A stretch of DNA of 64,000 nt from a virus: the IMG/VR virus record IMGVR_UViG_3300023202_000383, positions 1 to 64,000 of that record, one strand, 5' to 3'. Each line of letters opens with the position of its first letter. Position 1 is the first letter of the stretch. Shown in pieces: positions 2,599 to 43,071 of this stretch. The notes under the pieces are model-generated. The model was given only the letters and a program-made list of their open reading frames with translations, searched no databases and was not told the DNA's origin. A program made the position numbers and the translations under genes.

Positions 2599-2630
2599 TC
2601 ACCCTCCATTTTAGATTTGACGGAGGGTGA
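2599..2630 (-). promoter_or_regulatory. Hairpin that would sequester the ribosome-binding site
   Basis: On the minus strand, TCACCCTCC pairs perfectly with GGAGGGTGA across a 14-base loop. The 3' arm contains the GGAGG that serves the gene starting at 2596, so the folded leader would hide its Shine-Dalgarno. The pairing is seen directly; the regulatory role is inference. Confidence 0.45.
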
Positions 2631-2634
2631 TATA

Positions 2635-2952: not shown

Positions 2953-2973
2953 AGTTTCACCTCATTTTATTTT

Positions 2974-3498: not shown

Positions 3499-3886
3499 TT
3501 TGCCATCCTTTAACTAGATCTTTAATTAAATTGCTATTCCTAAACTTCATTTGGTCGCTCAAAATTGCTCTGAATTTATCCATACTTATATATCCACATT
3601 TTACAAATTCAATGGGATCCATATTGTTTTTCCTTAGTTTACAGCCATCACATATTGGTACTATATTAGCCTGTACACAAGGACCCTTTTTGGATATAGG
3701 GAACATAAATTCTACGCTAGAAGTGTCCGAGCTGCAGTAGGCACATTTAGACTCATAAAAGTCTAAAATGTCCATTGCTTGATCAAGCGTAATGTCCGAT
3801 AGCATGCCAGATTTTTTGGCCCGATGCCTGCCTTGGCGAAGCCAACCGCCTATGCGATGTCTAATATGATTATCAGCATCTGGCAT
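3470..3886 (-). CDS. Degenerate HNH-endonuclease-like protein
   Basis: 138 aa. CAYCSS in the middle and NIVPICDGCKLRKNN later match the zinc-binding and helix parts of a CxxC...CxxC HNH nuclease (usual form: D-H...P...G....N-hhP-C..CN..K). Where the catalytic Asp-His should be, this protein reads VEFMFPISKKG, so the catalytic His appears lost. It is probably a zinc-stabilised, catalytically dead HNH fold, or a sequence-specific binding relic of a homing nuclease. The N-terminus is basic (RHRIGGWLRQGRHRAKK). Confidence 0.6.
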   Translation of the reverse strand: MPDADNHIRHRIGGWLRQGRHRAKKSGMLSDITLDQAMDILDFYESKCAYCSSDTSSVEFMFPISKKGPCVQANIVPICDGCKLRKNNMDPIEFVKCGYISMDKFRAILSDQMKFRNSNLIKDLVKGWQNGANGRETT

Positions 3887-25363: not shown

Positions 25364-25585
25364 ATGTTTAAATGGCTTTTCGGCAGCAAGAAGCAAGAAA
25401 TGCATATCCATGTACATGTGGATGGTATTTTGAATGTTCAAGGTCAGGATTTAAAGCTTGGCATAAATTCGGATGCAGATATAAGCAACAATAAACAGGA
25501 TCCAAAAGAATCACACATACCTGAAATGGACCCGACAATTGGAGAAATTGACTTACCGCAGGTAGAATTTGGCGAAGAGGACTAA
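25364..25585 (+). CDS. Hypothetical protein, 73 aa
   Basis: A short N-terminal amphipathic segment (MFKWLFGSKKQEMHIHVHVDG) followed by an acidic tail. The first codons are immediately downstream of a TATCAAATATAAAA motif. It ends two bases before the actin-like gene start and is probably co-expressed with it, perhaps as a partner or adaptor. No family recognised. Confidence 0.5.
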   Translation: MFKWLFGSKKQEMHIHVHVDGILNVQGQDLKLGINSDADISNNKQDPKESHIPEMDPTIGEIDLPQVEFGEED

Positions 25586-25586
25586 A

Positions 25587-26615
25587 ATGATTAAAATAGG
25601 ATTAGATCTTGGCACAAAGACAATCGTTTCTGCTAAAAGAGGCGAAGAAAACAAGCCTATATTCAAGCATGAAATAAATGGGTTTTATGAATTCCCGACA
25701 CCAGATAGCTTTACAAAAAAGCTGTTGGTTGGTCAGAAAATACCATTTGTTGAGAAGGATGGCAAGATATATGCTCTTGGCCGGAAGGCTGAGCAGTTTG
25801 CATATGCTGTCAATTCTACTCTTCGTAGACCGATGGCTGATGGTACAGTTAGCAAAGAGGAAGAAGCCATTAATATTATGGCATCGATTGTCCATGCTAT
25901 AATTGGCAAGTTAGATGATGATGCAATATTGTACTATTGTATCCCAGCAGACGCTATAAATAAGAGCACAAATGTGCAGTTCCACCAGAAGATTGCACAG
26001 ATGATAATTGATCGGTATCAAAGAAGTAAAGTAACTGTCAAGGGTTATCCTATCAATGAAGCCAGAGCGTTAGCTATAGGTTCTGGTGAGCCGGTTTGTA
26101 TTGCTGTGTCATTTGGTGCTGGTATGGTCAATGTTTGTTATTGCATGTACGGCATGTCAGTGTTTGAATTCAGTTTAGTTGGTAGCGGAGACCGGGTTGA
26201 TGCGGAGGCTGCTAGGCAGTTTGGATATGATCCAGAAAATCCAAATAAGAGCAGTCGCGAAACGCCGACAACCATGTGTAAGAGAAAGCACCAAATAGAT
26301 CTGACAAAATCTAAAGATGAAGTAGATAGAAAAGACCAGGCGATAATGATTTCGTATCAGATTCTGATAGAGAATGTTGTTGACGGTATTATAAAGGGTT
26401 TCAACGAAAACGAAGAAAAAGCCAAGATAGATCAGGCAATCCCTGTTGTAATAGCTGGTGGTACTTCATCTCCTCCGGGGTTCGGCGAATATTTTGAGGA
26501 GATTATGAAGTCTAAAGAACCCCCGTTTGAAATATCCACTATAACGGTACATCCTAGACCATTATATGCTGTTGCGGAAGGTTGTCTTATCGCTTCTGAG
26601 AGTCATGAGGAATAA
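25587..26615 (+). CDS. Actin-like ATPase (MreB/ParM/Hsp70 superfamily)
   Basis: 342 aa from the ATG at 25587. IGLDLGTKTIVSAK (phosphate 1), VSFGAGMVNVCYC (phosphate 2) and VVIAGGTSSPPGF (adenosine motif) are the three signatures of the actin/Hsp70 ATPase fold. Length fits MreB/ParM-like filament proteins. In jumbo phages, tubulin-like or actin-like filaments position DNA or segregate genomes. Here the gene stands directly ahead of virion-like genes rather than beside an obvious adaptor-centromere pair. Role in the cell is inference. Confidence 0.85.
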   Translation: MIKIGLDLGTKTIVSAKRGEENKPIFKHEINGFYEFPTPDSFTKKLLVGQKIPFVEKDGKIYALGRKAEQFAYAVNSTLRRPMADGTVSKEEEAINIMASIVHAIIGKLDDDAILYYCIPADAINKSTNVQFHQKIAQMIIDRYQRSKVTVKGYPINEARALAIGSGEPVCIAVSFGAGMVNVCYCMYGMSVFEFSLVGSGDRVDAEAARQFGYDPENPNKSSRETPTTMCKRKHQIDLTKSKDEVDRKDQAIMISYQILIENVVDGIIKGFNENEEKAKIDQAIPVVIAGGTSSPPGFGEYFEEIMKSKEPPFEISTITVHPRPLYAVAEGCLIASESHEE

Positions 26616-26884: not shown

Positions 26885-27310
26885 ATGCCGAGAAAGAGCC
26901 TAGAAGACAGGCTATGTGAAGCGTTATTAAGTCATTCGTCAAAAGACAATGACCAGTTTGATGAATATGTTGAAGATATCAAAGATCTCATGGGGTCATC
27001 TGGAGTTCTAGAAGAAGGCAAAAAGATAACTGTTACTACTATAATAGATACTGATGAAGATGAAGAAAAGATAGATCCTCAGGTAAAATTAAATATCCCA
27101 GATGAAGCAAAAAACAATTTCATGAACAAGGCTCAGGAATTGGGAAATTTTGATAGTCCTGCTTGGGTTGAGCAAGTTGTCAATGGTCTAAAGCAAGCGG
27201 GGGTTCAAGGAATGAACCCTATTGAGGATGATGAAAAGCCTGTAACTAAGAAAGAGATCATGTATCTAATATCTATGCTGATTGATCTCATAAAAACAGG
27301 AAAAGTATAA
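26885..27310 (+). CDS. Hypothetical acidic protein, 141 aa
   Basis: Acidic and helical with an extended Asp/Glu segment (IDTDEDEEKIDP) and a C-terminal amphipathic helix. Its last base overlaps the next ATG. Context suggests a morphogenesis accessory or chaperone; no motif supports a specific role. Confidence 0.5.
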   Translation: MPRKSLEDRLCEALLSHSSKDNDQFDEYVEDIKDLMGSSGVLEEGKKITVTTIIDTDEDEEKIDPQVKLNIPDEAKNNFMNKAQELGNFDSPAWVEQVVNGLKQAGVQGMNPIEDDEKPVTKKEIMYLISMLIDLIKTGKV

Positions 27311-27915
27311 TGGCGCTAGAAGGTAAGGGACTAAACCTTAAAGGCGACAACACTTTCAAACCAGTTACCCCAGGCGTTAGAGTCACAGATATAGTTGTTA
27401 GAGGTGGCGGGGGAACGGTAACATTCTCTGATGGTGTTACTGTAGAATATTTATTTCAATTTATACAAGATCCCAGTATACCGTCTGGCGGTATCTTCGA
27501 TGTCACTCTGCAGGGCGATAGAGCTAAGAGAACGTATGAAAATGTGATATCTCAAGCTGTTTGTGATATGGTTGATTGGGTGACTCAGTGTTCCAGTCTC
27601 AATAGGCGAGTTTCTGAATTAGAAAAGTTACTTGGTAGAGGTGTTGAATTTACGTTCGAGATTGAGGATTGGGACGATCTTGGTGTAAAGAATCAGATCC
27701 ACATTATAAATGAAGGAACTCCTGGGCCTGGAGAAATTGGTCCACATGAATTAGGTACTTCTAGATCATTCCATATATCTGTTTGGAAAAGGGATGGGTC
27801 CCCTGCGATATTCGGCGTAGATACTGAATTCGAAATCAATTTAGATACTGGATTAATCAAACTTATTAAAGCTCCTTTAGGTAAGCCATTTGCTGGCAGG
27901 GTTATTGTAAGTTGA
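27310..27915 (+). CDS. Virion-like protein with GEIGPHxL C-terminal domain
   Basis: 201 aa. The N-terminal part is Gly-rich (VVRGGGGTVTFSDGVTVEYL), the middle is helical, and the C-terminal 70 residues contain PGPGEIGPHELG ... TGLIKLIK ... FAGRVIVS. The same C-terminal module recurs in the gene at 28294 (PGAGEIGPHGLA ... TGDITLTK ... FDGRVIVV), so a shared tail or fibre-type beta domain is likely. Its stop overlaps the TTG start of the next gene. Confidence 0.55.
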   Translation: MALEGKGLNLKGDNTFKPVTPGVRVTDIVVRGGGGTVTFSDGVTVEYLFQFIQDPSIPSGGIFDVTLQGDRAKRTYENVISQAVCDMVDWVTQCSSLNRRVSELEKLLGRGVEFTFEIEDWDDLGVKNQIHIINEGTPGPGEIGPHELGTSRSFHISVWKRDGSPAIFGVDTEFEINLDTGLIKLIKAPLGKPFAGRVIVS

Positions 27916-28293: not shown

Positions 28294-28992
28294 ATGTCTA
28301 AAACTTTTTATGAAGCAATTATCGCGCAGGGTGGCTTTGCTGGGCAGGTATTTGATGTTGCTGCTGGTCCTGCCAACACCGATGTGATTGATGCTCTTTT
28401 GAGTGCCAGCGATGGTGTTCTTACGGAGAATGCTCCAGTCAATATGATATCAACCGGTGCTCTCTCTGCTGGAGCTGGTACTGATGGTATTGTTGACCTT
28501 GATATTACTGCGTTGGAGCAGGAAGGTCGCTGGTTCTGGCTTTCTGTTAGAAACAGTGATATCGGAACAATTAGCTTAACTGTTACTTCTACCACAGATA
28601 TTAATGGTGGCGGTGCCACCTTAACTATCAGTAGTGCTCAGGACCTGTTGTTTGTTCATGAATCTGGAGGCACTTGGAGAGCTTATCGCCAAGAACTTAG
28701 CACAGCCCCAACAAATGCTAAGATTTTCCGCGATACATTTGCTGCTAGTGATTGGTCTGGTGGGCCTACTAACTCTATTACAGTAATACAAACTGGCGCT
28801 CCTGGTGCTGGTGAAATCGGGCCTCATGGATTAGCTATTGCTAGTTCTTATGCTGTTCAGGTATATCGAGATTCAGACGATGAGCTTGTGGATCTTGGTA
28901 CAGTAGTAGATGGTGGCACCGGTGATATCACCTTGACTAAAACTGGCCTTGGTACTAATTTTGATGGTCGTGTGATTGTCGTTGGTGACTAA
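28294..28992 (+). CDS. Virion/tail-fibre-like protein with GEIGPHxL C-terminal domain
   Basis: 232 aa, Gly/Thr/Ala-rich and beta-rich with almost no Lys, typical of tail-fibre or decoration proteins. The C-terminal module PGAGEIGPHGLA...GDITLTK...FDGRVIVVGD is shared with the gene at 27310. The N-terminus (MSKTFYEAIIAQGGFAGQVF) resembles that of the gene at 29233 (MAREFFDTVATKAGLAGEYE), hinting at a common attachment domain. Confidence 0.6.
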   Translation: MSKTFYEAIIAQGGFAGQVFDVAAGPANTDVIDALLSASDGVLTENAPVNMISTGALSAGAGTDGIVDLDITALEQEGRWFWLSVRNSDIGTISLTVTSTTDINGGGATLTISSAQDLLFVHESGGTWRAYRQELSTAPTNAKIFRDTFAASDWSGGPTNSITVIQTGAPGAGEIGPHGLAIASSYAVQVYRDSDDELVDLGTVVDGGTGDITLTKTGLGTNFDGRVIVVGD

Positions 28993-29232: not shown

Positions 29233-29991
29233 ATGGCTAGAGAGTTCTTTGATACTGTTGCTACTAAAGCTGGTTTGGCTGGCGAATATGAAGAACTAAT
29301 TGAGTCTGAATTCGCCGCCTCGGCTGGACCAGCGTATACGCCCGGCGAAGATGGAATTTTTAGGGTAGTTGCCTCTAGGACAATTCAGTTATTGAAGGGT
29401 AGTCCAATCTATGTGGAGACTTTTCAGGACTCTGCTGCCACCCTACGAGTTCCGTCTGGGCTAATAGCAAGCAATGATGCCAACGATGGTAGATTTTATT
29501 TTGTCAAGAACAGCGGAATTGGGAATGTTGCATTACAAGATCACTTAGGTGGATCTTTGGCGGCAATCCGTAAAGGTCAATTTGTTGTTGCCCTACATGG
29601 AGATGATGATAATTGGGATGCTTCTGGGTTGCTTAGTTCCGACGCCGTCGTCGAAGTCAAGAACACGTTGACGACCACGGACACACTGCTGAACACGATC
29701 GCCACGATCGACGTCGACCCCAGCACCGTACACCATCTGGACGTGACGATCACGGCGCGGGAGGGCGACAATAATAGAGGGTCGTTCGTGCGTAAGGCCA
29801 CGATTTACCGTAATTCGACGGGCGGGGCAGCAATCGAGAATAACGTAATCGTGGTATTTGACGAGAGCAGCAGCGGTAACTTTAAGATAGCTGTCGTGGC
29901 GAGCGGCAACAGCATACTCATTCAGGTTCAGGATGAGCAGGGGCAAACGGTGAACTGGACCAGTTGGCACAAACTCTACTCACAGGCGTGA
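29233..29991 (+). CDS. Chimeric fibre-like protein (AT-rich 5' part, GC-rich 3' part)
   Basis: 252 aa. The N-terminal 136 residues are encoded in AT-rich DNA like the rest of the genome. From about 29640, in the middle of the gene, composition and codon choice switch abruptly to GC-rich with C/G third positions, and stay so to about 32110. The N-terminus resembles that of the 28294 gene, while the C-terminus is a fibre-like beta domain. This is what recombination that swaps fibre tips would leave: own base-plate attachment end, foreign distal end. The reading frame is intact. Confidence 0.7.
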   Translation: MAREFFDTVATKAGLAGEYEELIESEFAASAGPAYTPGEDGIFRVVASRTIQLLKGSPIYVETFQDSAATLRVPSGLIASNDANDGRFYFVKNSGIGNVALQDHLGGSLAAIRKGQFVVALHGDDDNWDASGLLSSDAVVEVKNTLTTTDTLLNTIATIDVDPSTVHHLDVTITAREGDNNRGSFVRKATIYRNSTGGAAIENNVIVVFDESSSGNFKIAVVASGNSILIQVQDEQGQTVNWTSWHKLYSQA

Positions 29992-29992
29992 C

Positions 29993-30634
29993 ATGATTAC
30001 CGGCATCACACAATTCGGGTTGGAGGGGCGTGTAGCAACGGTGGATCACGACCCGGCTATCGTGTCGACCGATGTCCCCGCAGGTTCGATTATCCTGTCG
30101 ACCTCCACAGGATTGCTCTACCGAAAACTCACCGGCGGCAGCAACACGGATGTGTTGCCGATGACCGCTTCCAGTCAGCCGTTCGATTGGGACAGCGGGG
30201 CGTCGGCGGTCGCGGCGGTCGTCGCGGCCGGGATGCTGTCGCTCGAATTGCTTGCCGATACCGACTCGAAGGTAGTCGGCGGCGACGTTGCCCCGCTGCA
30301 CGTCGACCTCGATCAGGCGTTGGAGCTTGACGTCAAGATCGTCACCCTCAGCTTGGGCGACGCGTCGGCCGACGCGCACCTGCGGCTGACGGCCCGCTAC
30401 GTGGGGTTGGGCGAGGCGGCGGACAAGACGCCCGACGAGACGATCGACCACATCTTTGAAGTCGCCAACGTAGATAAGTGCGTGCACGCCGTGACGTTCA
30501 CACTGGACCCGTCGCTTATCTCCCCCGAAGACCTGCTAAACCTGGAGCTGTCGCGGCTGGGCACGTCAGCGAGTGACGTGTTTACCGGCTCCATCGGCGT
30601 TGCCGAGAGGTCGCTGCTGAGGTTCTTTAACTGA
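29993..30634 (+). CDS. Tail-fibre/virion-like protein (GC-rich module)
   Basis: 213 aa. GC-rich, Asp/Ala/Leu-rich, with beta-strand repeats (VHAVTFTLDPSLISPEDLL) typical of phage fibre or decoration proteins. Starts one base after the preceding stop; the next gene begins in the last base of its stop. No specific receptor-binding fold recognised. Confidence 0.6.
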   Translation: MITGITQFGLEGRVATVDHDPAIVSTDVPAGSIILSTSTGLLYRKLTGGSNTDVLPMTASSQPFDWDSGASAVAAVVAAGMLSLELLADTDSKVVGGDVAPLHVDLDQALELDVKIVTLSLGDASADAHLRLTARYVGLGEAADKTPDETIDHIFEVANVDKCVHAVTFTLDPSLISPEDLLNLELSRLGTSASDVFTGSIGVAERSLLRFFN

Positions 30635-31164
30635 TGGCAAGCACGTACGAACTGATACTGTTCCGCGAGGAGACCCGAGACGACGGGAAGGTGGCGTTGC
30701 TGCGTATCCCGTTGGTGGCCGGTGCGGGGATCGACCTCGACGCGGTGATCGGGGAGGTATCCGCCGGTAGCGGTGTGAGCGTGCAGGAGGGATACGCCGA
30801 GAGCGAAGGGACCAGTTCGACGACCAGCACCAACTTTCAGCAAAAGCTCCGCGCCAGCTTGACGGGTCTAGACGCCGGTACGTATGAGGTGGCGTGGTCT
30901 TGTGAGGTGTTGCCCGGCAAAAACAATCTGGCTGCCCGCGTGCGGGTTCAAGTGGATGACACGACGACGCTAAACAGCCCTGACCCGGTCCTCAATCGAG
31001 ACAATAGCGGGGGCAACGTGAAGGGCTGGATGCCTCTCAGTGGGTTCCGTCAATTGGCATTGAGCGCCGGGGATCATGACTTCGACATCGACTTTGCTTC
31101 ACCTCAGAACGGAAAGTCAGTAGATATCCGGTTTGCGCGTATCAAAATAGCGAGGACAAATTAA
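30634..31164 (+). CDS. Tail-fibre distal/virion-like protein (GC-rich module)
   Basis: 176 aa. Serine/threonine-rich start, then a beta-sandwich-like sequence (AGTYEVAWSCEVLPG, DHDFDIDFASP, VDIRFARIKIA) of the kind seen in small carbohydrate-binding fibre heads. Overlaps the preceding gene by one base and is followed immediately by a GTG-start gene. Confidence 0.55.
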   Translation: MASTYELILFREETRDDGKVALLRIPLVAGAGIDLDAVIGEVSAGSGVSVQEGYAESEGTSSTTSTNFQQKLRASLTGLDAGTYEVAWSCEVLPGKNNLAARVRVQVDDTTTLNSPDPVLNRDNSGGNVKGWMPLSGFRQLALSAGDHDFDIDFASPQNGKSVDIRFARIKIARTN

Positions 31165-32106
31165 GTGGCCGAGCAAGCATACACGTACAGCATCGCCAGC
31201 GACTTCCCGTCGGGCGCGGTCAACACGCAGAAGCTGCACGACGAGGTCGTGGCCGACACGGCGATCACGACGCAGCTCGACCGCATCGACACCGACGGCG
31301 ACGGCTTGTCAATCGTGTTTCAGGCGGCGCTGTCGGCGGCGGAGAAGACGGCGCTGGACGGCGACACGACCGGACCGGCCGGGGGGCTGATCGCGCAGCA
31401 CGACAACAGCGCGTCCGCCCCCGACTACGGGAAGATGCAGATCGACGGGATCTCCCCGGACGCCAACGGCTCGCTGCCGCAGGCCCCGATCATCTCCACG
31501 CCGGGCCACCGGCTCAACGACCGCGACGTGCTGGTGCGGGTGGGCGAGTTCGACAACCCGTTCGAGGACCTGCGGGTCAACCCCGACGACAACAAGGAAG
31601 TGGCGTGGGGCGAGGTCACGTGCGACCCGGCCGACACCGATCCGGCGAACAAGACCGGGGTATTCAAGCTCGACGGCAACGGCGACTGGGTCCGCTGCAC
31701 CGACCAGACCGACGCGGCCGCCAACGCCGGGCTCACGGTCCTGGAGTACCAGGCCCGGCAGGGCGGCGTGGCCGGGGGCGATGCGCTCAAGTACGACGTG
31801 CGGGGCGGGACGCTGTGGGTCGACTCCAACGTGCCGGACGACGGCGACCGCTGGTCGCACCGCGTCTATTCGGTCGGTGCCCCGGACCTGTCGGCCGTCC
31901 TCGGCGGCCGGGTGCCGTTCTTCGACGGTTACCTGTTTCCCTATCGCAACAACTGGATGCAGACGCTCAATCCCGTGGCGTTCCCGATGGATCCGTCGGC
32001 GTCGGCGGCGGCGAGCATCGTCCGCGTGTGGTTCTATTACAAGGCGGGCACGGCGTACGAGCACGTGCTGCGGTTCCACCTGTACCGACCGACCGGAAGC
32101 TGGTAG
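31165..32106 (+). CDS. Tail-fibre-like protein (GC-rich module, GTG start)
   Basis: 313 aa from a GTG directly after the preceding stop. YTYSIASDFPSGAVNTQKLHDEV at the start resembles the virion-attachment repeat found in fibre proteins of siphoviruses and myoviruses, and the C-terminus is a jelly-roll-like beta domain. The most GC-rich gene in the window. It probably determines host binding (inference). Confidence 0.6.
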   Translation: MAEQAYTYSIASDFPSGAVNTQKLHDEVVADTAITTQLDRIDTDGDGLSIVFQAALSAAEKTALDGDTTGPAGGLIAQHDNSASAPDYGKMQIDGISPDANGSLPQAPIISTPGHRLNDRDVLVRVGEFDNPFEDLRVNPDDNKEVAWGEVTCDPADTDPANKTGVFKLDGNGDWVRCTDQTDAAANAGLTVLEYQARQGGVAGGDALKYDVRGGTLWVDSNVPDDGDRWSHRVYSVGAPDLSAVLGGRVPFFDGYLFPYRNNWMQTLNPVAFPMDPSASAAASIVRVWFYYKAGTAYEHVLRFHLYRPTGSW

Positions 32107-32118
32107 GGTTTCCCATTC

Positions 32119-32190
32119 ATGAAGCTAATATTCTGCCCAGACTGCCGGGACGTGTTTAAGCTAGTCCGCGATGAGCCCCGTAAATGCTGA
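32119..32190 (+). pseudogene. Truncated zinc-ribbon ORF remnant at island edge
   Basis: Encodes MKLIFCPDCRDVFKLV then RDEPRKC and a stop (23 aa). Full-length phage relatives of this CPDC-start family continue with a second CxCG-type knuckle; here the frame ends right after the third Cys, where composition falls back to AT-rich. It looks like a gene from the GC-rich donor cut by the recombination junction. Confidence 0.45.
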
Positions 32191-32237: not shown

Positions 32238-32888
32238 ATGGCTGACAAGATCAGTGTGCTTATGCCAACATATAATCGTGCGCACTTGATAGGTGTGTCT
32301 ATAAAGTCTATATTGTCCCAGACCCATAAAAATGTTGTTTTGTGCATCTATGATGATGGGTCTACTGACAATACAGAAGATGTCGTAAAATCATTTGGCG
32401 ATAACAGAATCATATATCATAAATCCGGAAAGAATTCTGGGTGTCCAGTTGCTAGAAATAAACTTCTTGAGATGGCCAATACTAGGTATGCTTGTTGGCA
32501 AGATAGTGATGATATCTCAAATAAGCATAGAATAAGAGAACAATTGAAGGCTATAAAGAAGTCGAAGGCGGCTATGGTTTGGTCTACGTTTAGGTGGTTT
32601 GACAAAGATATTGGCGATTCTTGGATGGAAGAACCAAAATCGCATAGTGGTACGGCTGCCCATGCTAGCATAATGTTTGAAGTATCTAAGGCCGTGCCAT
32701 TTAGATTGGTAAAAACTTTGGGTGGAGAAGATGCTAAGTGGCGTAGAGAAATAGAATCAGTTTATGGCAGGACGTTAAAAATCCCCAAAATATTGTATTA
32801 TGTAAGAAAGCACAATGATAGGATTGGGGTATGGAAGAAGAATCCTAAAGCCAATAAAGACTGGTACAACAGGATGGTCAAAAGATGA
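32238..32888 (+). CDS. GT2-family glycosyltransferase
   Basis: 216 aa. ISVLMPTYNRAHLIGVSIKSIL, IYDDGSTDNTEDVVKSF and WQDSDD (DxSDD-type metal site) are hallmark GT2 motifs. The C-terminal part is shorter than in full-length GT2 enzymes but includes the acceptor-loop region. It overlaps the sulfotransferase by four bases, so a sulfated sugar product is plausible. Confidence 0.85.
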   Translation: MADKISVLMPTYNRAHLIGVSIKSILSQTHKNVVLCIYDDGSTDNTEDVVKSFGDNRIIYHKSGKNSGCPVARNKLLEMANTRYACWQDSDDISNKHRIREQLKAIKKSKAAMVWSTFRWFDKDIGDSWMEEPKSHSGTAAHASIMFEVSKAVPFRLVKTLGGEDAKWRREIESVYGRTLKIPKILYYVRKHNDRIGVWKKNPKANKDWYNRMVKR

Positions 32889-33529: not shown

Positions 33530-33702
33530 AAGACGTCGGCAAAGCCAAACTGGAATCAGAGAAAGCTTTAACTGAGTATCTAAAATGCCAGCAAGAACTG
33601 CTGGTAATGATCAATAAACAAATGGATCTGGGAAGAATCTACGCTGAGAAGAGAGCCGAATATTTGGCTTTGAAAGAAGATAATGAGCCAGGAATTGATT
33701 AA
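33526..33702 (+). CDS. Small helical protein, 58 aa (GTG start)
   Basis: A GTG at 33526 overlaps the upstream TGA (GTGA). The frame runs 58 codons: a charged amphipathic helix rich in Lys, Glu and Leu (KAKLESEKALTEYLKCQQE). It ends overlapping the convergent endonuclease stop by four bases. No family recognised, but coupling and codon usage support it. Confidence 0.5.
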   Translation: MKDVGKAKLESEKALTEYLKCQQELLVMINKQMDLGRIYAEKRAEYLALKEDNEPGID

Positions 33703-35327
33703 GGTTTCAATATAAATTTATAATGTCCAGCATCCCACAGTCTTCTATATTTATTATTAAACATATTTTCGGCCTCGGTAAGACGCGAGTCGAAATTTTC
33801 TAGTAATTTTGATAATTTGTGTTTTTGAAAGTGTTGGCGAGAATACAATATCGATGTGTTGCCGTCTTTATAATATTTATAATTTGGCTTAGTTAAACCG
33901 CATGGTTTGAATCCTAATTTTTTATATAAATTTCCTGTCGAATATCTTGCGTCTGCATATGTTAAAATTGATTTTGGGTCATGTAATGCTATAAAATGAT
34001 TTAGTAGTTTTCCTGCTCCCCCGATAGCTGTTGAACCTATAGCTTGTGCGTATCTTATTATTTCCCATTTATATTTATGGTGCTTGGCAAAAGACATGCA
34101 TGCGACTAATTCTCCATTATATGTTAATCCAATTCTTACCGATGCATCCCGCGATCCATATATATGGTTTTCAGTCATAAATGAATCGTAATCTTTTGTG
34201 TTCAACGATATTATTTTACATTTTCTGGCGTATAATTTTGATGAATACCCAAGTTTATGATTTATTATTGATTTGACTATATTTTGTTTGTTTGACCATT
34301 CGTCCTCGTTTATTTGCAGAAGTTGTATATTGTTTTCTACGCATCTAGTATGTTTAGCTTGATGTTTAAATCTTTCGTCTTTTGATTCAGTATGGTTGTA
34401 TGAATGGTAATATAACCCATTATATTCGATAGCTACGTTATGATTTGGCAGATAGATATCGATTTCTAATGGATATATTGTCTTTCTATCGTTAATAATA
34501 TATTCAGTATTTATCGATTTTATATATTCTATTATTTCTTGGTGTGGTTTAGAAATCGAGTTAGAGCATTTAGGGCATCCGTGTCCGTTTAAATGATTAC
34601 TTACTGTTTGGGAAAAATTGCCGTGTATGATACATGTTATTGTGATTGGTTCCATGTACCCGCTGTAATTGGATTTGTCATATGAATATTTGTCGCCGTG
34701 GATCGATATTGCTCTATTTATTATATCTTCTGTTGTAGGTGTGTTTATTGCACATTTAGGGCAACCGTGGCCTTCGAGGTGCCTTCTGGTTAATTGTTTA
34801 AATTTGCCATGTTTCGGGCATTTTATTATTATGTGACTTCGATATGATTTATATATCGAATCGCTATAATCATATTTGTTATTGTGTAATTTTGATGATT
34901 TATTTATAAAATCGTCAATTGTATTACTTAAATTTTTTATTCCGCATAATTTGCACCCATACTTTCCGTAGATGTGTGATTTTGGTGTTTGTTCGAATTC
35001 GCCGTGTTCTGGGCATATTATTGTGATTTTTGTATAGCTATTGACATACTCAGATTTACTATAATCATACTTATCGCCGTGCACTAATGTTGCTTTTTCT
35101 ATAAATTTATTTAGTGGCAATTTAAGATTTTGTTTTTGTTGTTGCCTAAAACATTTTTTGCATCTTGCGCCTTTTTTGTGATTTCTAGCGCGTTGTCTAA
35201 ACTCTCCGTGTTCCGGGCATATTATTGTGACGCGTCCGCTCAATTCAATTTCTGTAACCTTTGAATAGTCATACTTGTTATTGTGTATCAGGGATGATTC
35301 ATGTATAAAGCGTTGTAATTTATTCAT
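33699..35327 (-). CDS. Hef-like homing endonuclease (DUF723 repeats, EDxHD/Vsr-like nuclease, acyltransferase-like C-terminus)
   Basis: About 542 aa from the ATG at 35327. Four or five tandem DUF723-type units (HGDKYDYSK ... CPEHGEF ... H..G.GCPKC) form the DNA-binding half. LEIDIYLPNHNVAIEYNGLYYH is an EDxHD/Vsr-like nuclease core. The C-terminal 150 residues (SFMTENHIYG ... TYADARYSTGNLYKKLGF) are an acyltransferase-like domain, ending with the signature FQKHKLSKLL ... WDAGHYKF tail. It is convergent with small genes and divergent from the polymerase gene, consistent with a free-standing mobile nuclease next to its target. Confidence 0.85.
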   Translation of the reverse strand: MNKLQRFIHESSLIHNNKYDYSKVTEIELSGRVTIICPEHGEFRQRARNHKKGARCKKCFRQQQKQNLKLPLNKFIEKATLVHGDKYDYSKSEYVNSYTKITIICPEHGEFEQTPKSHIYGKYGCKLCGIKNLSNTIDDFINKSSKLHNNKYDYSDSIYKSYRSHIIIKCPKHGKFKQLTRRHLEGHGCPKCAINTPTTEDIINRAISIHGDKYSYDKSNYSGYMEPITITCIIHGNFSQTVSNHLNGHGCPKCSNSISKPHQEIIEYIKSINTEYIINDRKTIYPLEIDIYLPNHNVAIEYNGLYYHSYNHTESKDERFKHQAKHTRCVENNIQLLQINEDEWSNKQNIVKSIINHKLGYSSKLYARKCKIISLNTKDYDSFMTENHIYGSRDASVRIGLTYNGELVACMSFAKHHKYKWEIIRYAQAIGSTAIGGAGKLLNHFIALHDPKSILTYADARYSTGNLYKKLGFKPCGLTKPNYKYYKDGNTSILYSRQHFQKHKLSKLLENFDSRLTEAENMFNNKYRRLWDAGHYKFILKP

Positions 35328-35385
35328 AATAAAATATCTTTGATTACAGATAGATCCTCTGCATTGCGTGTTGTATTTTATATAC

Positions 35386-36747
35386 ATGGTTGACATAATG
35401 AAATATAATGGTCCTACAGACTTTGCTCATCTTCATGTCCATACTTTATATAGTACGCTTGATGGGGTTCAATCTCCAGAAGAATTGTTTTCTACGTGCA
35501 AAGAAAGAGGATGGAGTGCGTTAGCCGTAACCGAGCATGGGACATTGGCATCAGTCCCAGACAATTATGCGGCTGCAAAAGAATACGGCGTAAAGTATAT
35601 AGTTGCTTGCGAAATTTATTACAATGATTATGAACCGACTAGGCAAGATCTTGTTAAAGAAGATGTTAAAATTCGCAAGCTAAAAGAAACCGACCCTAAT
35701 TTTTATTATAAAATGTCTAGAAATAGGCATTTAACAGTCCTTGCTAAAAACGATAAGGGTGTGGAGAACATAATAAAATTGACCACTCAAGCGTGGGAGA
35801 CTGGATTTTATTATAGGCCGAGGATATGGTTTGATAAATTAGATGAATATAGAGAGGGTTTATTGGTATTGAGTGGATGTTTAAATGGGCCTGTTTCTCA
35901 TGAGTTAAGACATGGGAATTTAAGGTCTGATGATATGAGAGGTGCATTAGACTATATACATAAATTCAAAGAAGTATTTGGCGATGATTATTTTGTAGAA
36001 TTGCAGATGCCTTGTCTTCCTGATTTTCCTGACCACAAAGTCTTCCGTGCATTAAATCATATAGCTAACAAGTACAATATACCGAAAGTTCTTACAAATG
36101 ACGCACATTATCTAAATCGTGAAGACTTTGAAATCCAGAAATTAATGATGGCTATATCCCAGGGTTTAACTGTTGATGATCCGAATCTGTTCCATGTAAA
36201 TAGTGATGAGCAATATCTTAAAACCAGAGCAGATCTATGGCACACATTTAAGACTGGGAAAGACGGCAAATATTGTGAATATGTGACTGATAGCGAATTT
36301 GAAGATATGTGCAACAACACATTGGTAGTTGCCGGTAAATGTGATAATTTCGAACCTGATTTGTCGTCGAAGGTTCCTACATTAGATAATGACGAGCAGA
36401 TCTTAAGAACCCTTGTGTACGATAGGCTTAAGCAAGAGGGATTCGATAAAGATGAAACTAAGTACAATATAGACAATAAAGAAGTTACTTATAGAGAACA
36501 AGCCGACATAGAATTGAATAGGTTTATTGAGAAGAATTTCGCCAGCTATTTCTTGATAACCAGAGATTTGGTGCAGTATAGTTTAGATAACGGTTGGCCT
36601 GTTGGACCGCGAGGTTCAGTTGGCGGCAGTCTAGTGTGTTATTTATTGGGCATAACCGAGTTGGATCCAATAAAATGGAATTTATCGTTTAACAGGTTTT
36701 TAAGCCCCTCGCGCGGAGGAAAGATGCTAAACATTAAGGCAGAATAG
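35386..36747 (+). CDS. dnaE: DNA polymerase III alpha, N-terminal piece (PHP domain plus start of palm)
   Basis: 453 aa. HLHVHTLYSTLDG, VTEHGT, VLSGCLNG and LTNDAHYL are intact PHP metal-binding motifs, suggesting proofreading-type or pyrophosphatase activity. The C-terminus reaches GPRGSVGGSLVCYLLG and SFNRFLSPSRGGKM, where normal DnaE continues directly into the catalytic PDxDxD. Here it reads LNIKAE and stops. An ATG at 35398 is an alternative start. The catalytic Asp pair lies in a separate gene at 39423, so polymerase activity needs assembly of the pieces. Confidence 0.88.
   Translation: MVDIMKYNGPTDFAHLHVHTLYSTLDGVQSPEELFSTCKERGWSALAVTEHGTLASVPDNYAAAKEYGVKYIVACEIYYNDYEPTRQDLVKEDVKIRKLKETDPNFYYKMSRNRHLTVLAKNDKGVENIIKLTTQAWETGFYYRPRIWFDKLDEYREGLLVLSGCLNGPVSHELRHGNLRSDDMRGALDYIHKFKEVFGDDYFVELQMPCLPDFPDHKVFRALNHIANKYNIPKVLTNDAHYLNREDFEIQKLMMAISQGLTVDDPNLFHVNSDEQYLKTRADLWHTFKTGKDGKYCEYVTDSEFEDMCNNTLVVAGKCDNFEPDLSSKVPTLDNDEQILRTLVYDRLKQEGFDKDETKYNIDNKEVTYREQADIELNRFIEKNFASYFLITRDLVQYSLDNGWPVGPRGSVGGSLVCYLLGITELDPIKWNLSFNRFLSPSRGGKMLNIKAE
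36733..36746. repeat. 14-bp direct repeat flanking the homing endonuclease, copy 1 (copy 2 at 38615-38628)
   Basis: ATTAAGGCAGAATA occurs at the end of the polymerase N-terminal gene and again just before the gene at 38629. An extended TAAACATTAAG segment is shared too (36728-36738 and 38604-38614). Removing the interval would place the ATG at 38629 immediately after the polymerase stop, as expected if the endonuclease gene is an insertion. Confidence 0.8.
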
Positions 36748-36777
36748 GTCTAATTCAGTTATAAGCAAATATATAAT

Positions 36778-38613
36778 ATGATAAATGTACAACGAAGCAA
36801 AGAAGTGTTTGGATTAAAAAGCATCAATAGGATTCCTAAAAAACAGAAAGTTATATGTAATTGTGATGTTTGTGGGGTTGAATCACGTATTACTAAGCAG
36901 CACCATTATATATGCAGCAAACGTGCTGGTTTATATAGATGTAAAGATTGTGGTAGAAAAGCCATGGCATCTAAAGTATCAAAAGCCATGATATCAAAAT
37001 GGCAAAACGACAAATACAAATCCAAGCAGATTGGCAGGACTCATAGCGATGAATTAAAGGAATATGCTAGGCAGAGAGCTATCAAATTGTGGAAAGATAA
37101 AGAATATGTGGCAAAGTATAATGCTGGGTTTGACCCGGCCAAGGCTAGAAAGAATCTAAAGGCCACCAGATCGGTTGCCAATAAAGCTGCATCGCTTGCT
37201 ATGGCTGATAAATGGCAGGAAAAAGAATATCGCAGTAAAATGTCAGATCAATCAGCTAAGCTATGGAGTAACGATTGTTATAGAAACAAAGTAATAAGTA
37301 GCCTCAAAAAACATTATTCGTCATTAGAAGTTTTAGATAGATGTTCAAATAGAGCGAAAAAATTGTGGAAGAATAATGATTATAGGGATAGGTGGTTCAA
37401 ATCATTTATGCAATCATTTGGCAATGAAAGGTTACACGAAATTTCATTACAAAGTGCCAAGAATTGGGGAGACCGAGAATATAGAGATAAAATAGAATCA
37501 CAATGGGACGATCAAAAACGTGCAGAAATGTCCGAAATATGTAAAGAATGGTGGACTGATGATAGGAGAGCTGAAGTTTCTGAGATTATGATAAGTAGGT
37601 GGTCGGACCCTAATTTTAGAAAGAAAACAATAAAAGCATTTATTGATTCATGGACTGAAGAACGCAGGCAGGCTGCTAAAGATTCATGGACTGAAGAACG
37701 CAGGCAGGCTGCGTCTGATAGATCCAGGAATTTGTGGAAAGATCCGAAATATGTTAGCAAGATGGTTGATATGATCGGGAGGCCGTCGTCTTTAGAAATT
37801 CAATTCGCCAGCTTATTGGATGATTATGGCATCGAGTACACGCAACAGTTCCATTTAGGGCCATATTTATTTGATTTTAAGGTCAACGATGTCTTAATAG
37901 AAATTAATGGCGATTATTGGCATAGATTGCCGAAGACAATATCAAAAGACAAGGCTAAAGCTACTTATGTTGAAAAACATTATCAGCAATATCAGCTTAA
38001 GTATTTATGGGAGCATGAATTTTATCAATTAGAAAAGATTAATAAATTTATTGAATTCAGTTTTGTTGGTTCTGACGTAGAAGAGGTTGATTTTTCAGAA
38101 TTAAAATTTGTTACTGATATAGATTATGATTCAATAAAATCGTTAATTGAGAAATATCATTATAAAGGAAGTATTGGTCGGGGTGGGGTGTATTATGGTG
38201 TTATATATCGTGGTAATTTGATCGCTGGGTCTGTTGTTGGGTCACCAACTAGGAATGTTGTTGGTGGCGAGTTGTTACGATTTGTTATACACCCACAGTA
38301 TCAGGTCAAGAATCTTGCATCGTGGTTTTTGAGTAGAATCTCAAAGCATGCTTTGAGAGATTATGATTTATTGTTTACATTTGCTGATCCGAATTTTAAC
38401 AATTACGGCACAATATATGAGGCTAGCGGCTGGGAATTTGCTGGCGAAACAAAATCAGATTATTGGTATGTTAGCGAAGACGGTTGGGTTATGCATAAAA
38501 AGACTTTATGGAATAGAGCAAAGAATTTATGTATGTCAGAAAGGTATTTTGCTGAGGTTTTTGGATATAATCGGGTATATGGGTTGCCAAAGAGAAAGTA
38601 TATTAAACATTAA
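36778..38613 (+). CDS. Free-standing EDxHD/Vsr-like homing endonuclease inserted in the fractured polymerase
   Basis: 611 aa. An N-terminal Cys/His zinc finger (CNCDVCG ... YRCKDCG) is followed by seven or more NUMOD-like repeats (KLWKDKEYV, KLWSNDCYR, NLWKDPKYV). The nuclease core LEIQFASLLDD ... LFDFKVNDVLIEINGDYWH is the EDxHD/Vsr-like family described for fractured phage genes. A C-terminal acyltransferase-like domain follows. It lies between the first and second polymerase pieces and is flanked by 14-bp direct repeats. It contains an internal 30-bp tandem duplication (DSWTEERRQAA twice). Confidence 0.85.
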   Translation: MINVQRSKEVFGLKSINRIPKKQKVICNCDVCGVESRITKQHHYICSKRAGLYRCKDCGRKAMASKVSKAMISKWQNDKYKSKQIGRTHSDELKEYARQRAIKLWKDKEYVAKYNAGFDPAKARKNLKATRSVANKAASLAMADKWQEKEYRSKMSDQSAKLWSNDCYRNKVISSLKKHYSSLEVLDRCSNRAKKLWKNNDYRDRWFKSFMQSFGNERLHEISLQSAKNWGDREYRDKIESQWDDQKRAEMSEICKEWWTDDRRAEVSEIMISRWSDPNFRKKTIKAFIDSWTEERRQAAKDSWTEERRQAASDRSRNLWKDPKYVSKMVDMIGRPSSLEIQFASLLDDYGIEYTQQFHLGPYLFDFKVNDVLIEINGDYWHRLPKTISKDKAKATYVEKHYQQYQLKYLWEHEFYQLEKINKFIEFSFVGSDVEEVDFSELKFVTDIDYDSIKSLIEKYHYKGSIGRGGVYYGVIYRGNLIAGSVVGSPTRNVVGGELLRFVIHPQYQVKNLASWFLSRISKHALRDYDLLFTFADPNFNNYGTIYEASGWEFAGETKSDYWYVSEDGWVMHKKTLWNRAKNLCMSERYFAEVFGYNRVYGLPKRKYIKH

Positions 38614-38628
38614 GATTAAGGCAGAATA

Positions 38629-39015
38629 ATGGATAAGAATCAGATTAAGTTAGGAATAACATCTATACAGCGATCCGTTGTTGTGTGCAATAGGTTGGGG
38701 CTGTTTGAAGCAGCGTCGGCTGCTGTTTACAGTATGATAGATGCTATAAACGCTTTGGTAGAAGGCAACGAAGAAACTGCTGCTGAAGATTGTTTCAAAT
38801 CATCGTTTCTGATATATAAGGTTTTGTACGAATCATTTTCTGAAAAGTTTGAGAAGAGATCCAGTCTAGCGGAAGACGCGGAGAAAATTCTGAAAGAATC
38901 CAATGATTGGAATGCATTTGCAAAAGCGTCCAGTAATTATATGGATGCAATAGCAGAGGTTGTACATGGAACGGAATTCGAGGCCGAATTCTTGAAATTT
39001 AAAGTTGGCTCCTGA
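38629..39015 (+). CDS. Hypothetical helical protein, 128 aa
   Basis: All-helical, Ala/Ser/Glu-rich. No family recognised. Its ATG lies directly after the second 14-bp repeat, so before the endonuclease inserted it would have followed the polymerase N-terminal gene without a gap. It overlaps the next gene by 11 bases. Possibly a polymerase accessory. Confidence 0.55.
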   Translation: MDKNQIKLGITSIQRSVVVCNRLGLFEAASAAVYSMIDAINALVEGNEETAAEDCFKSSFLIYKVLYESFSEKFEKRSSLAEDAEKILKESNDWNAFAKASSNYMDAIAEVVHGTEFEAEFLKFKVGS

Positions 39016-39496
39016 TAAAATAGACATATATTGCTTTGCTAGAGGCAAGGATAGTCCATACGCATATGGCATCCTTGTGGTCGCACATTATGGCGAAGAG
39101 TGTAAAGAGCACGAGAAATTTGGTTTCGTAGATGCGAAAACGCCTACTGAGGCCAATATCAAGATAATATTGATGGCGTTGAAGTCCGTTAAAGATGACT
39201 TTAAGGACCTCGATATCACTCTTCATGTAAGAAAATCTGCATTTTATTGTGTTGATAGAACATCTTGGGGAACCTATAGAACAAAGCCAACCAGACATCA
39301 TAAACTGATAGGTGCGGTGAGAAGTTTGTTTGACGAGCTTCCTAATGCAAGATCAAAGATGATATTCTCCAAATACCAAAAGTATGCTAAAAGATGTATA
39401 AAAAAGTCTAGGAGCATGTTTCATGCGAAACGACGCGAGTTGGGACGATATAAAGGTGATAGCGGTCAAGGAGCTCGTCCAGAAAAAGCTACCTAA
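39005..39496 (+). CDS. Possible RNase H-fold protein, 163 aa (TTG start)
   Basis: A TTG start overlaps the preceding gene. IDIYCFARGKDSPYAYGILVVAHYG ... DAKTPTEANIKIILMALKSV ... ITLHVRKSAF follows the strand-strand-helix-strand order of RNase HI, but the usual Asp and Glu catalytic residues are not in place (first Asp replaced in CFARGKD). It is probably an inactive or divergent RNase H-like fold, perhaps a polymerase partner. It overlaps the polymerase catalytic piece by 74 bases. Weak assignment. Confidence 0.4.
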   Translation: MAPDKIDIYCFARGKDSPYAYGILVVAHYGEECKEHEKFGFVDAKTPTEANIKIILMALKSVKDDFKDLDITLHVRKSAFYCVDRTSWGTYRTKPTRHHKLIGAVRSLFDELPNARSKMIFSKYQKYAKRCIKKSRSMFHAKRRELGRYKGDSGQGARPEKAT

Positions 39497-41192
39497 CGAG
39501 TATAAGTCTAGATTTAAGACAGAAATAAAAGAGATCGAAAAGCAAGGTGCCAATGCCTATTGGCAGCAGCTATATAACGAAGATCACAAATACGACACGA
39601 ATAACAATGGTTTGGTCTTGCCCTGGATATTAGGCATGACCGATGTTGATCCTTTAAAATCAGACCATCAATATACAAGGTCGACGGACTGGCCTGACAT
39701 AGATGTTGACTGCTTACCGACAGCCAGAGATAGGATCAAAGAATATGCTGCAGAGAAATATGGCAAAGACAAAGTCTGTAGCGTAGGGTTGTGGCAGACA
39801 TATAAATTTAGGTCAGCATTACAAGACTCTGTTAGAGGTGTTGGTGGTAATGTCAAAGAAATCATGGACATCACTAAGCAGTTGCCGGATGATGTTGACG
39901 ATCTGAAAGATGGTGGTTTTGCAAAGTGCACTGAATGTAAAACGAAGCATAATGAGCATAAATGCCCAGAATGTGGATCAACAGAAATAGATGGGATCAC
40001 ATTTGGGAAGGTGATAGAAGATCATGAAGAATTAAAGAAATATTATGGAGAGCATCCTAAAGAAGTCAATCTAGCCGTTAGAATGATAGGAAAAATAAAA
40101 GCGCTGGGTAAACACGCTGGCGGCCTTATTATATCTGATAGAGTGCTATTCGGAAATGTCCCTATGGGCGTTTCAAATGGCCATTGGACAAGTTTGTGGA
40201 CTGAAGGCAGGAGTACTCAATTATCTAAATTCGGGTATATTAAGTGGGATATGCTTGGCCTTAAAACTTTGCAGTATATTCATGAGTGCTGCAAATTAAT
40301 CAATAAAACCAGAAATTACAAGTTTAATGTTATTCCATGGAAAGGAATGGACCCATGGGAAAACTGTCTTGGATACTATTGGGATAATAATGGCGTAAAA
40401 CACAAAGTGAGGATGGATGACGAAAAAACCTTTGAGATGATGAACGCCATAAGGACCGATACAGTATTCCAATTCGACACGGCACTGCAGAAGAAGATTT
40501 TAGAAAATGGCGTAAACAGCTTTTATGATTTACAGATATTTAATGCAATGGGCCACCCAGGTCCGTTGCCAATGATCGATGAGTATGTAGCTCGACGTGA
40601 CAATGAGGACTACGATTGGAAGAGCGAGGAGCATCCTGATGTTGCATCGTTGCTTAAAGACACAAAGGGTATCATAGTATATCAGGAGCAATTGCAGAAG
40701 ATCTGGCAACATTTGGCTAAATTCACGGCTCCCGAAGCTGAATCTGCGAGGAAGGCTGTTGCTAAGAAATGGACGGAAAAACTAAAGCCTGTTGAGGAGA
40801 AGTGGGTAAGGGGCGCATCTAAGATAATGGGCGAGCGGCGGGCTAAAGATTACTGGGGGAAGATGAAAACTTTCGGTAGGTATGCCTTCAATAAATGCCT
40901 GGACAAAGATACTATATTAGAAGATCCTACAAATGGCAATACTATAACTGTTGAAGAGCTTTTTGAATCTAAATCGAGCTTTAAATTAGAATCTTATTGT
41001 GATGATGGATTTGTGGTCGATGACGTTGATGAGATAATCGAATGCGGTGAACAAGATATTTATGAAATAGAATTAGATAATGGGGCGATTCAGAAAGTCA
41101 CTTTGAATCATAAGTTTAGGTGCGATGATGGAAAATACTGGACAGTCAAAGAAATCATCGAAGGCAATTATTCCATCGTGGTTCGACCATAA
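39423..41192 (+). CDS. dnaE: DNA polymerase III alpha, catalytic piece fused to split-intein N-fragment
   Basis: 589 aa. Residues 91-96 are PDIDVD, the catalytic Asp pair of C-family polymerases, and KWDMLGL near residue 274 supplies the third Asp. A four-Cys zinc ribbon (CTECKTKHNEHKCPECG), unusual for DnaE, lies near residue 165. The N-terminal 80 residues (ILGMTDVDPL) repeat in degenerate form a region already encoded at the end of the first piece. The extein ends at FGRYAFNK. From Cys at 40896 the sequence is an intein N-fragment. A stop at 41190 ends the protein, so trans-splicing with the piece at 41923 is needed. Confidence 0.85.
   Translation: MRNDASWDDIKVIAVKELVQKKLPNEYKSRFKTEIKEIEKQGANAYWQQLYNEDHKYDTNNNGLVLPWILGMTDVDPLKSDHQYTRSTDWPDIDVDCLPTARDRIKEYAAEKYGKDKVCSVGLWQTYKFRSALQDSVRGVGGNVKEIMDITKQLPDDVDDLKDGGFAKCTECKTKHNEHKCPECGSTEIDGITFGKVIEDHEELKKYYGEHPKEVNLAVRMIGKIKALGKHAGGLIISDRVLFGNVPMGVSNGHWTSLWTEGRSTQLSKFGYIKWDMLGLKTLQYIHECCKLINKTRNYKFNVIPWKGMDPWENCLGYYWDNNGVKHKVRMDDEKTFEMMNAIRTDTVFQFDTALQKKILENGVNSFYDLQIFNAMGHPGPLPMIDEYVARRDNEDYDWKSEEHPDVASLLKDTKGIIVYQEQLQKIWQHLAKFTAPEAESARKAVAKKWTEKLKPVEEKWVRGASKIMGERRAKDYWGKMKTFGRYAFNKCLDKDTILEDPTNGNTITVEELFESKSSFKLESYCDDGFVVDDVDEIIECGEQDIYEIELDNGAIQKVTLNHKFRCDDGKYWTVKEIIEGNYSIVVRP
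40896..41189 (+). other. Split-intein N-fragment in DnaE (site FNK|S)
   Basis: 98 codons beginning with Cys1 (CLDKDTILED), with block B-like IYEIELDNG and VTLNHKFRCDDGKYW (TxxH form) and ending ..GNYSIVVRP before a stop. Size and ending match natural split inteins such as the gp41/NrdJ type. Its C-partner lies at 41923-42054, 730 bases downstream. Confidence 0.75.
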
Positions 41193-41942
41193 AATTATAA
41201 GCTACAATGATAATATAAAAAGTAATGATACAATAAAATCAATATGTTCAATATGCGGCGATAAAACAAGTAGAAAATTTATCGAACATAAAAGGCTGTG
41301 CAATAGGCAATCAAGATATGTTAGCTCATATCGGTGCCGGTCTTGCCTGACAAAGTCAGATGATTACAAAATCAAAATAAAAAAAGCTGAATTCGACACA
41401 GATGCTATGAGTAAGAGGTCAAAAAAGCATTGGGCTAATTTATCAAAGCACGATCGTAAGGCATTAACTAGCAAGATAACAGCCAAATTAAGAACTGATG
41501 CTGTAAGAGAAAAAATTAGCAAGTCTATAAAAGAAAAATTTGACGATCCAGATTATATTCGTAAAGTTTCGGAGGCGAGAAAGAAATATTGGGAAAATTA
41601 TGAATATAGGAAAAATAGGACGTTATCGATAGATGAATTTATAGAGAGATCTAAGTCAGTTCATGGCGATAAGTATGATTATTCGAAAGTTCAATTCGAT
41701 TCTGCCAGGAATTCTAAAGTTGATATTATATGTCCAGATCATGGTGTCTTCCGACAAAGACCGTTATGGCATTATTTGTATGGTAATGGGTGCCCAGATT
41801 GTTAGACAAGAATTCCAAAAGCACAAACTTAGCGGTAAATTAGACAATTTTGATAGTAATTTGACTGAACTACAGAATATGTTCAATAATGGATATAGGG
41901 TGGGATGCTGGACACAATAAATATGAATGGAAACGTAGCTAA
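41125..41942 (+). pseudogene. Decayed homing endonuclease between split-intein halves
   Basis: The frame 41125-41805 keeps an N-terminal zinc finger (CSICGDKT ... YRCRSC), a NUMOD-like helix array and one DUF723 unit (VHGDKYDYSK ... CPDHGVF ... GNGCPDC). It then stops. A different frame resumes with QEFQKHKLSGKLDNFDSNL, and a third with GWDAGHNKYEW, which are the C-terminal tail of the endonucleases at 33699 and 63349. The nuclease and acyltransferase domains are deleted, so this is a remnant that marks a former homing insertion in the intein. Confidence 0.7.
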
Positions 41943-42054
41943 AATAAAGTCTATAAAATATGTCGGTAAAAGAAGATCATACAACATATGTATGGAATCT
42001 AGCCAACATAATTATTTAATAAAACCATCTAGCGGGCAACCTATTCATAAAAAT
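41923..42054 (+). other. Split-intein C-fragment in DnaE
   Basis: 44 codons ending in ..PIHKN before Ser. Block F is HNYLI. Together with the N-fragment at 40896 it would total about 142 residues, a mini-intein size. The combined interval is not a multiple of three, which excludes a single contiguous intein gene. Confidence 0.72.
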
Positions 42055-43071
42055 TCCCATAGCATAGGCTATATAACGGAGGCATATTGGTGTGCATGGT
42101 TAAAGGCTCACTTTCCGCCAGAATGGTGGGCGTCTGTTATGAGTTATTGCCACCATGTGAGACTCAAGAGATACATGAATGTGGCAAGGTCTGAGGGCGT
42201 TAAATTTGGTCCTATAAATATAGAGGACCTGTCACCATATTATTCAGTCGACCCAGAGACGCATAAAGTCACTCCTGGTCTTATAAGCATAAAGGGGATC
42301 GGCCAGAAAGCTGCAGACAAACTGTCTGGTAAAGGAAAGTATGATAATATAGATGATTTCGTGGATAAATTTGGAAAAGACAAAAGGGTGATGGAAAGAT
42401 TGATACTTCTTGGTGCTTTTCAGAAATACCACCCAAATATAAAAGCCACTTGGATTTGGTACCAATATAAATATTGTAGTGGCGCTGCCTCTAGAGAAAT
42501 CAAGAAGCACATTAAGTCTGAACTGCTGGCTGACTGGACCGATGAGAGAATTGAACAAGAACGCAAAAGACAGGCGGATGAATATTTTAAATTGTATCCA
42601 AATAGGCGTAAGCTTCCGAATAAGATAGCCAACTGGAATCCTAAGCCTGATGATACAAGAGAAAATGTTATGGCATTGATAGAAGACGATTATGCTAATG
42701 CCGAAAAATTCAATTTTGAAAAGGAATATCTAGGGTACTATTGGAGGAATCCAATAGAATATTTTAAGACTGATTCAGATAATACAATTATAAATGCCAA
42801 GAAGAATGGTGGGGGGTTCATAGATGTAGTGATAGAGTCTTTCGAAATAGCGGAGACTCGCAAAGGAGGATTATTCGGCAGGTTGGCAGTAATGGATGGC
42901 AGCACAGCCTGTAACGTATACATGTGGGAAGGCGAGCTCGATGCCTCTGAGAGCTTCATCGATGACGGGATAGGTATTAGACTAAATGTTGATTATAACG
43001 ACGGAAGAAGGACATTCTCAGTCAAGAGAGGATCAGTTCCTGTGATACTTGAGATGTCTGAGGACCAGTAG
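41923..43071 (+). CDS. dnaE: DNA polymerase III alpha, C-terminal piece with split-intein C-fragment
   Basis: 382 aa from ATG 41923 (ATG 41905 also possible). Residues 1-44 are an intein C-fragment: KIKSIKYVGKRRSYNICMES, the block F QHNYLI and a terminal PIHKN, then extein Ser42055. The extein SHSIGYITEAYW ... WLKAHFPPEWWASVM matches DnaE after the canonical FNK|SH site. A helix-hairpin-helix (ISIKGIGQKAADKL) and an OB-type region (FGRLAVMDGSTACNVYMWEG) follow. The DnaE is short and lacks a tau-binding tail. Penultimate Lys in HKN instead of the usual HN is unusual. Confidence 0.85.
   Translation: MNGNVAKIKSIKYVGKRRSYNICMESSQHNYLIKPSSGQPIHKNSHSIGYITEAYWCAWLKAHFPPEWWASVMSYCHHVRLKRYMNVARSEGVKFGPINIEDLSPYYSVDPETHKVTPGLISIKGIGQKAADKLSGKGKYDNIDDFVDKFGKDKRVMERLILLGAFQKYHPNIKATWIWYQYKYCSGAASREIKKHIKSELLADWTDERIEQERKRQADEYFKLYPNRRKLPNKIANWNPKPDDTRENVMALIEDDYANAEKFNFEKEYLGYYWRNPIEYFKTDSDNTIINAKKNGGGFIDVVIESFEIAETRKGGLFGRLAVMDGSTACNVYMWEGELDASESFIDDGIGIRLNVDYNDGRRTFSVKRGSVPVILEMSEDQ

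Follow-up and report, generated by a model that had tools for sequence, protein, structure and literature searches.

A GC-rich block of adhesin-type genes apparently joined in frame inside a gene of a fibre-like array in a low-GC jumbo myophage

Exchange of adhesion genes among tailed phages

Transfer of tail fibre genes among unrelated phages, including recombination inside fibre genes that replaces their distal part, was reportedly described by Haggard-Ljungquist et al. in 1992, and the joints in those cases are said to lie in conserved sequence. A search at the joints of the locus described here, in contrast, turned up neither repeats nor a shared segment. For fibres and spikes, domain mosaicism has been well documented (PMC10684548, 2023). 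As in those cases, adhesion-type proteins here have one fragment in common and differ in what is attached to it, whereas the present locus has a steep GC step inside one gene and three further genes that appear to have moved along with it. Distantly related Alteromonas phages have a whole recognition module in common (PMC10579305), and there too several adjacent adhesion genes travel as a group from one tailed phage to an unrelated one, their synteny kept; in that case the sharing phages are known and their fibres were tested, whereas the evidence here consists of domain matches derived from sequence. Cassette swapping for altered binding is already known, and the present case is a clean new example of a well-established principle.

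Fibre swaps are for the most part deduced from alignments of related phages. In the present case a single genome is enough, as the incoming DNA keeps its own base composition, and the joint is thereby located with a precision of a few codons, close to where a domain ends. In the excerpts of the literature on fibre swaps and GC content that were covered, we found no study devoted to a GC step within a single fibre gene, and we make no claim of absence. The locus offers a recent-looking, testable instance of adhesion genes passing between phages that differ strongly in GC content, within a jumbo group that has an actin-like gene.

The GC-rich island and its joint inside an open reading frame

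The window, that is the whole stretch of 64,000 bases analyzed, comprises bases 1-64000 of an IMG/VR record (IMGVR_UViG_3300023202_000383) of 256,507 bases and 41.1% GC. The record encodes a Tail_P2_I-type protein, a 1015-aa protein similar to phage large terminases and a tail sheath at 72,642-75,455, to which the fibre-like gene array is not adjacent. ARAGORN made 34 tRNA calls in the record, none of them within the window; one is a 'stop' tRNA with anticodon tta on the minus strand (L005:8690-8764, record 132690-132764), either a false positive or a suppressor. Within a 732-aa ORF (96,623-98,821), record positions 97349-98086 (L003) resemble residues 192-436 of the terminase-like protein (32%, E 2e-26), perhaps through a common intein or endonuclease insert.

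A GC and codon-usage scan at the level of single genes, which the preliminary description had called for, recovered both an island and a step inside a gene. Two-state segmentation placed the island at 29639-32180, with 62.9% GC against 41.1% for the record and window flanks of 38.3 and 37.0% GC; other settings shift its left edge to 29615. It is the longest GC-rich segment in all 256,507 bases and has the highest GC among segments of more than 400 bases. The top 2.5-kb window of the record coincides with it (GC 0.628, z 6.0), and the highest such windows in four relatives (788,841 bases summed) reach 0.465, 0.558, 0.543 and 0.527. The GC3 of the island ORF 31165-32106 is 0.94, compared with a mean of 0.40 (sd 0.09) over 294 mechanically chosen ORFs. 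Two lesser GC-rich segments (59%) occur in the same record, at L010:12163-13420 and L011:1491-2850, with ORF GC3 of 0.77 and 0.68. No terminators were found, and promoter-like sites numbered 10 against 6.0 expected, with none inside the island.

The left edge falls inside a continuous forward-strand ORF of 252 aa (29233-29991). Its first 135 codons (29233-29637) have a GC3 of 0.33 and the following 117 codons (29638-29991) a GC3 of 0.75; the best change point falls at codon 135 (base 29638), with a profile interval of 29623-29644, and not one of 2000 permutations was as strong. A switch at about codon 136 of a continuous ORF, as noted at the outset, is therefore right within error. The GC-rich part is open in the fused frame only, the remaining forward frames being interrupted by 6 and 9 stops. 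Residues 1-130 weakly resemble residues 1-130 of the low-GC paralogue immediately upstream, ORF 28294-28992, also on the forward strand (blastp: 24%, 144 columns, E=0.001; phmmer: E 0.03 only), and the similarity stops at residue 130, where the composition changes. The homology search of the two halves that had been proposed thus gave a weak paralogue match for the N-terminal half and no homologue for the C-terminal half. A single-sequence AlphaFold2 model of the whole protein had a mean pLDDT of 34 and was set aside.

The same array has been shuffled before. The paralogue 28294 combines an N domain like that of 29233 with a GPGEIGPH-type C domain in common with the low-GC forward ORF 27310-27915 (43% over 86 columns, E 3e-14), and this common C domain points to earlier low-GC exchange of C domains in the array. 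One N domain, matched only over those 130 weakly similar residues, is accordingly found with unrelated C domains. Taken together, these observations support the conclusion that foreign GC-rich DNA entered a gene of a virion-type array with the reading frame kept, and that the joint lies where a weakly shared domain ends; judged by composition, the exchanged part of 29233 is foreign.

Three complete forward ORFs follow the chimeric gene: a 213-aa ORF (29993-30634, GC3 0.81), a 176-aa ORF (30634-31164, GC3 0.70) and a 313-aa ORF with a GTG start (31165-32106). Composition is uneven along the island, with GC3 of 0.78 at 29638-31090, 0.43 at 31093-31177 (28 counted codons) and 0.95 at 31180-32083, and the GC3 of ORFs 30634 and 31165 differs with p 6e-12. 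This pattern is compatible with two donor pieces, 29638-31090 and 31180-32083, and equally with a single donor whose genes are uneven. Since the block looks like at least two pieces, it may not represent one simple tip swap.

The right composition edge (32180) lies inside a 23-codon forward ORF with a CPDC motif (32119-32190), which agrees with the preliminary description as to where the block ends. That this ORF is truncated was not confirmed: the pattern CPDCxDVFKL had 0 matches in IMG/VR, no second copy was present in 161 sequences (1.91 Mb), and the best match among phage records had E=6 only. A comparison of the two 301-base edge stretches gave no repeats. Repeats within 3.7 kb belong to short families, mostly GC-driven, and a 16-base pair of 88% identity at 29048 and 32119 was regarded as chance.

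Homologues and predicted fold of the island proteins

Searches of PHROGs and Pfam assigned no significant family, and no tail-fibre family, to any island protein; matches to phrog_9563, phrog_11672 and Gp18_dom_I (E 0.09-0.2) were too weak and were discounted. Sequence searches of the PDB with the other island pieces returned chance-level matches only. Distant domain homologues of two proteins were nevertheless found in phage contigs. The C domain of 30634 (residues 67-174) matches the C-terminal domain of fibre-like proteins in other phages. One is a 577-aa protein of L138, of which L136 has a shortened copy (33%, E 2e-10); another, of 301 aa, is encoded in L137 (26%; tblastn E 0.005, phmmer E 1.5e-7). 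The L138 contig has about 56% GC and carries a tail sheath, and its 30634-type gene is followed by an 83-codon ORF with a partial A4 profile match (E 0.005). The N domain of 31165 (residues 6-65) matches the N-terminal domains of two phage proteins, in L089 (43%, E 2e-9) and L137 (38%, E 2e-6); a 172-aa gene upstream of the L089 homologue had no similarity to 30634. In L137 the 30634- and 31165-type genes are adjacent, in the same order as in the island. The L137 copies of both domains have a GC3 of 0.34-0.36, so these domains are not intrinsically GC-rich. Profile comparisons for the two proteins covered 24 terminase relatives together with L089, L136-L138, L091 and the window's own record (G000).

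An AlphaFold2 model of 30634 built from three sequences averaged a pLDDT of 71, and most of its C domain scored 65-93. In Foldseek and VIA-align comparisons the C-domain model grouped with TNF/C1q-like jelly rolls. It matched ExsF, the TNF-like lectins PLTL and BC2L-C (Z 9.9, rmsd 3.7-3.8 A, 121 residues), PGP3 (Z 10.2, 2.9 A, 115 residues) and, in a viral structure library, phage fibre proteins. Because many unrelated families score alike, we label 30634 a knob-like jelly roll and assign no function from the fold. The predicted knob and the homologues among phage structural genes make 30634 a putative adhesin, and adhesin-type phage content is supported for two island genes, 30634 and 31165. 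The C part of 29233 and ORF 29993 lack a homologue, and an adhesin nature is suggested for them by their position.

A search for the donor gave negative results throughout. With tblastn, 31165 found nothing in 50,697 phage records even at E 10; among phage records the C part of 29233 had no match at E 0.01 (best E 9 at a limit of 10), 29993 had none at E 0.01, and the best match of 30634 had E 6. Pattern searches used residues of the window's proteins with motifs and spacings taken partly from relatives, and reported exact motif matches only. In IMG/VR such scans yielded distant domains only for the island proteins and no relative of the C part of 29233; one of two loci from the pattern searches (L090) was a chance match. 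The preliminary description spoke of tail-fibre tip exchange between phages with hosts of differing GC. The foreign in-frame DNA and the adhesin-type content of two genes bear out part of that statement; a tip role, as opposed to that of other virion surface proteins, the host GC and the donor go beyond these results.

Origin of the block and related cassettes

The island sits in a variable stretch between two anchors. On the left is an actin-like gene of the volactin family (25569-26615, forward; PF25216, E 5.9e-49) and on the right the N-terminal part of a DNA polymerase III alpha gene (PHP and NTPase domains; 35368-36747, forward). The gap between them is 8,753 bases here compared with 694 in L087 and L088, which are close kin, and 743 in L084; in L086 the polymerase gene lies 4,206 bases past volactin, and the fetched stretches of L083 and L085 had no polymerase match. 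In L083 volactin is followed by 779- and 911-aa proteins without meaningful family matches. Just right of the island is a low-GC family 2 glycosyltransferase gene (32238-32888, forward; PF00535, E 3.2e-29), and farther right a homing/HNH endonuclease gene on the reverse strand (33699-35396; phrog_559, E 6.7e-131); glycosyltransferase matches weaker than 1e-8 were left out of the comparison of relatives.

Volactin is known as an actin of the archaeon Haloferax volcanii (PMC10869688), and the words 'phage' and 'virus' are absent from the main text of that paper. Homologues in the jumbo-phage group were seen in the window, in L077-L082 and at L094:17261-18352, in several of them beside DNA polymerase III. 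At 35368-43071 of the window the polymerase III alpha sequence is divided among three ORFs (PHP/NTPase, NTPase/finger and HHH). The first two are separated by a homing endonuclease that carries a fused Mom-like domain; by eye, the N-terminus of the third ORF resembles an intein C-half.

The conserved neighbourhood bears on whether the contig might be an assembly chimera, with reads of another phage joined into it. The record is a single metagenomic contig, no other record was found with either junction, and L012, the sole additional record of this phage (2 mismatches in 7,158 bases), comes from elsewhere in the genome. A chimera, however, needs two independent false joins; both flanks derive from one genome, since the volactin and DnaE genes are neighbours in three relatives; and the left joint keeps one open frame, at a domain boundary. 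We consider a chimera unlikely.

The searches covered 44 of 65 terminase relatives, namely those whose contigs reach about 14 kb, one search adding L089 and L091, and six of the 44 carried a volactin gene. The chimeric protein had no match in these 44, whose records may be fragments. Among 1,787 ORFs of the fetched loci, which may likewise be fragments, 27310, 28294, 29993 and 30634 had no match, and 31165 matched the L089 protein and re-fetched copies only. Because the island genes were not found in the searched DNA of these relatives, the island is not an old feature of all members.

One volactin phage does hold a comparable cassette. L094 (G045), the 18.7-kb contig of L089, has a volactin gene (PF25216, E 1.1e-69) that is 31% identical to the one in the window. 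Three of its genes, at 689-3515, have a GC3 of 0.57, 0.58 and 0.71 against 0.26-0.41 (about 0.3) in the other listed ORFs. The last of the three has a 31165-type N domain, and patatin and glycosyltransferase/methyltransferase genes come after the cassette. The L094 case points to GC-raised adhesin cassettes as a repeated occurrence among volactin phages, and a single, isolated and recent event is harder to claim in view of it. It also favours the idea that the island consists of old resident genes made GC-rich by selection or codon use and not by import. Against that idea stand the absence of the chimeric protein and the island genes from the relatives' searched DNA, the low GC3 of the L137 domains, the sharpness of the composition change, which falls within a few codons inside one gene, and the fact that the L094 cassette has only about 60 residues in common with the window's, those within 31165. 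An old resident origin therefore seems quite improbable. Derivation of the block from host adhesin genes on a bacterial chromosome or plasmid, to which the lack of a donor and the occurrence of the jelly-roll fold in bacterial lectins and spore coat proteins would lend some colour, is very improbable, as the relatives found sit in phage contigs, one of them beside a tail sheath, plasmids gave no match for 30634, and scans of genome contigs, which are insensitive, gave no relative of 31165.

We think it probable that the island is a block of phage virion-adhesin genes recombined from a GC-rich phage into the fibre-like gene array of a low-GC jumbo myophage. The left crossover would lie at the linker behind the N-terminal domain of 29233, and the resident N-terminal part, presumably docked to the particle, would gain a foreign C-terminal domain. 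Three whole foreign genes would follow, at least one with a knob-like jelly roll, and the donor pieces, to judge from composition, may have been two. The block most probably arrived during co-infection by recombination that was illegitimate or aided by an endonuclease, with selection for joints at domain linkers; given the homing endonuclease gene 1.5 kb to the right of the exchanged DNA, we mention break-induced exchange as a possibility. What we infer from this arrangement is that the recombination took place and which way it went, that the proteins sit on the virion and bind a receptor, and that the host range changed.

More tentatively, volactin jumbo phages might keep an exchange site near their actin and replication genes, which would receive GC-rich adhesin cassettes from a pool common to them and to unrelated tailed phages. 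The window's record and L094 would then represent two independent uptakes, and the glycosyltransferase and homing endonuclease genes would be part of the site. In a further phage record of 45% GC (L157, G047 at about 101-114 kb), which also holds 30634/31165 homologues, about 12 kb are mostly 61-66% GC.
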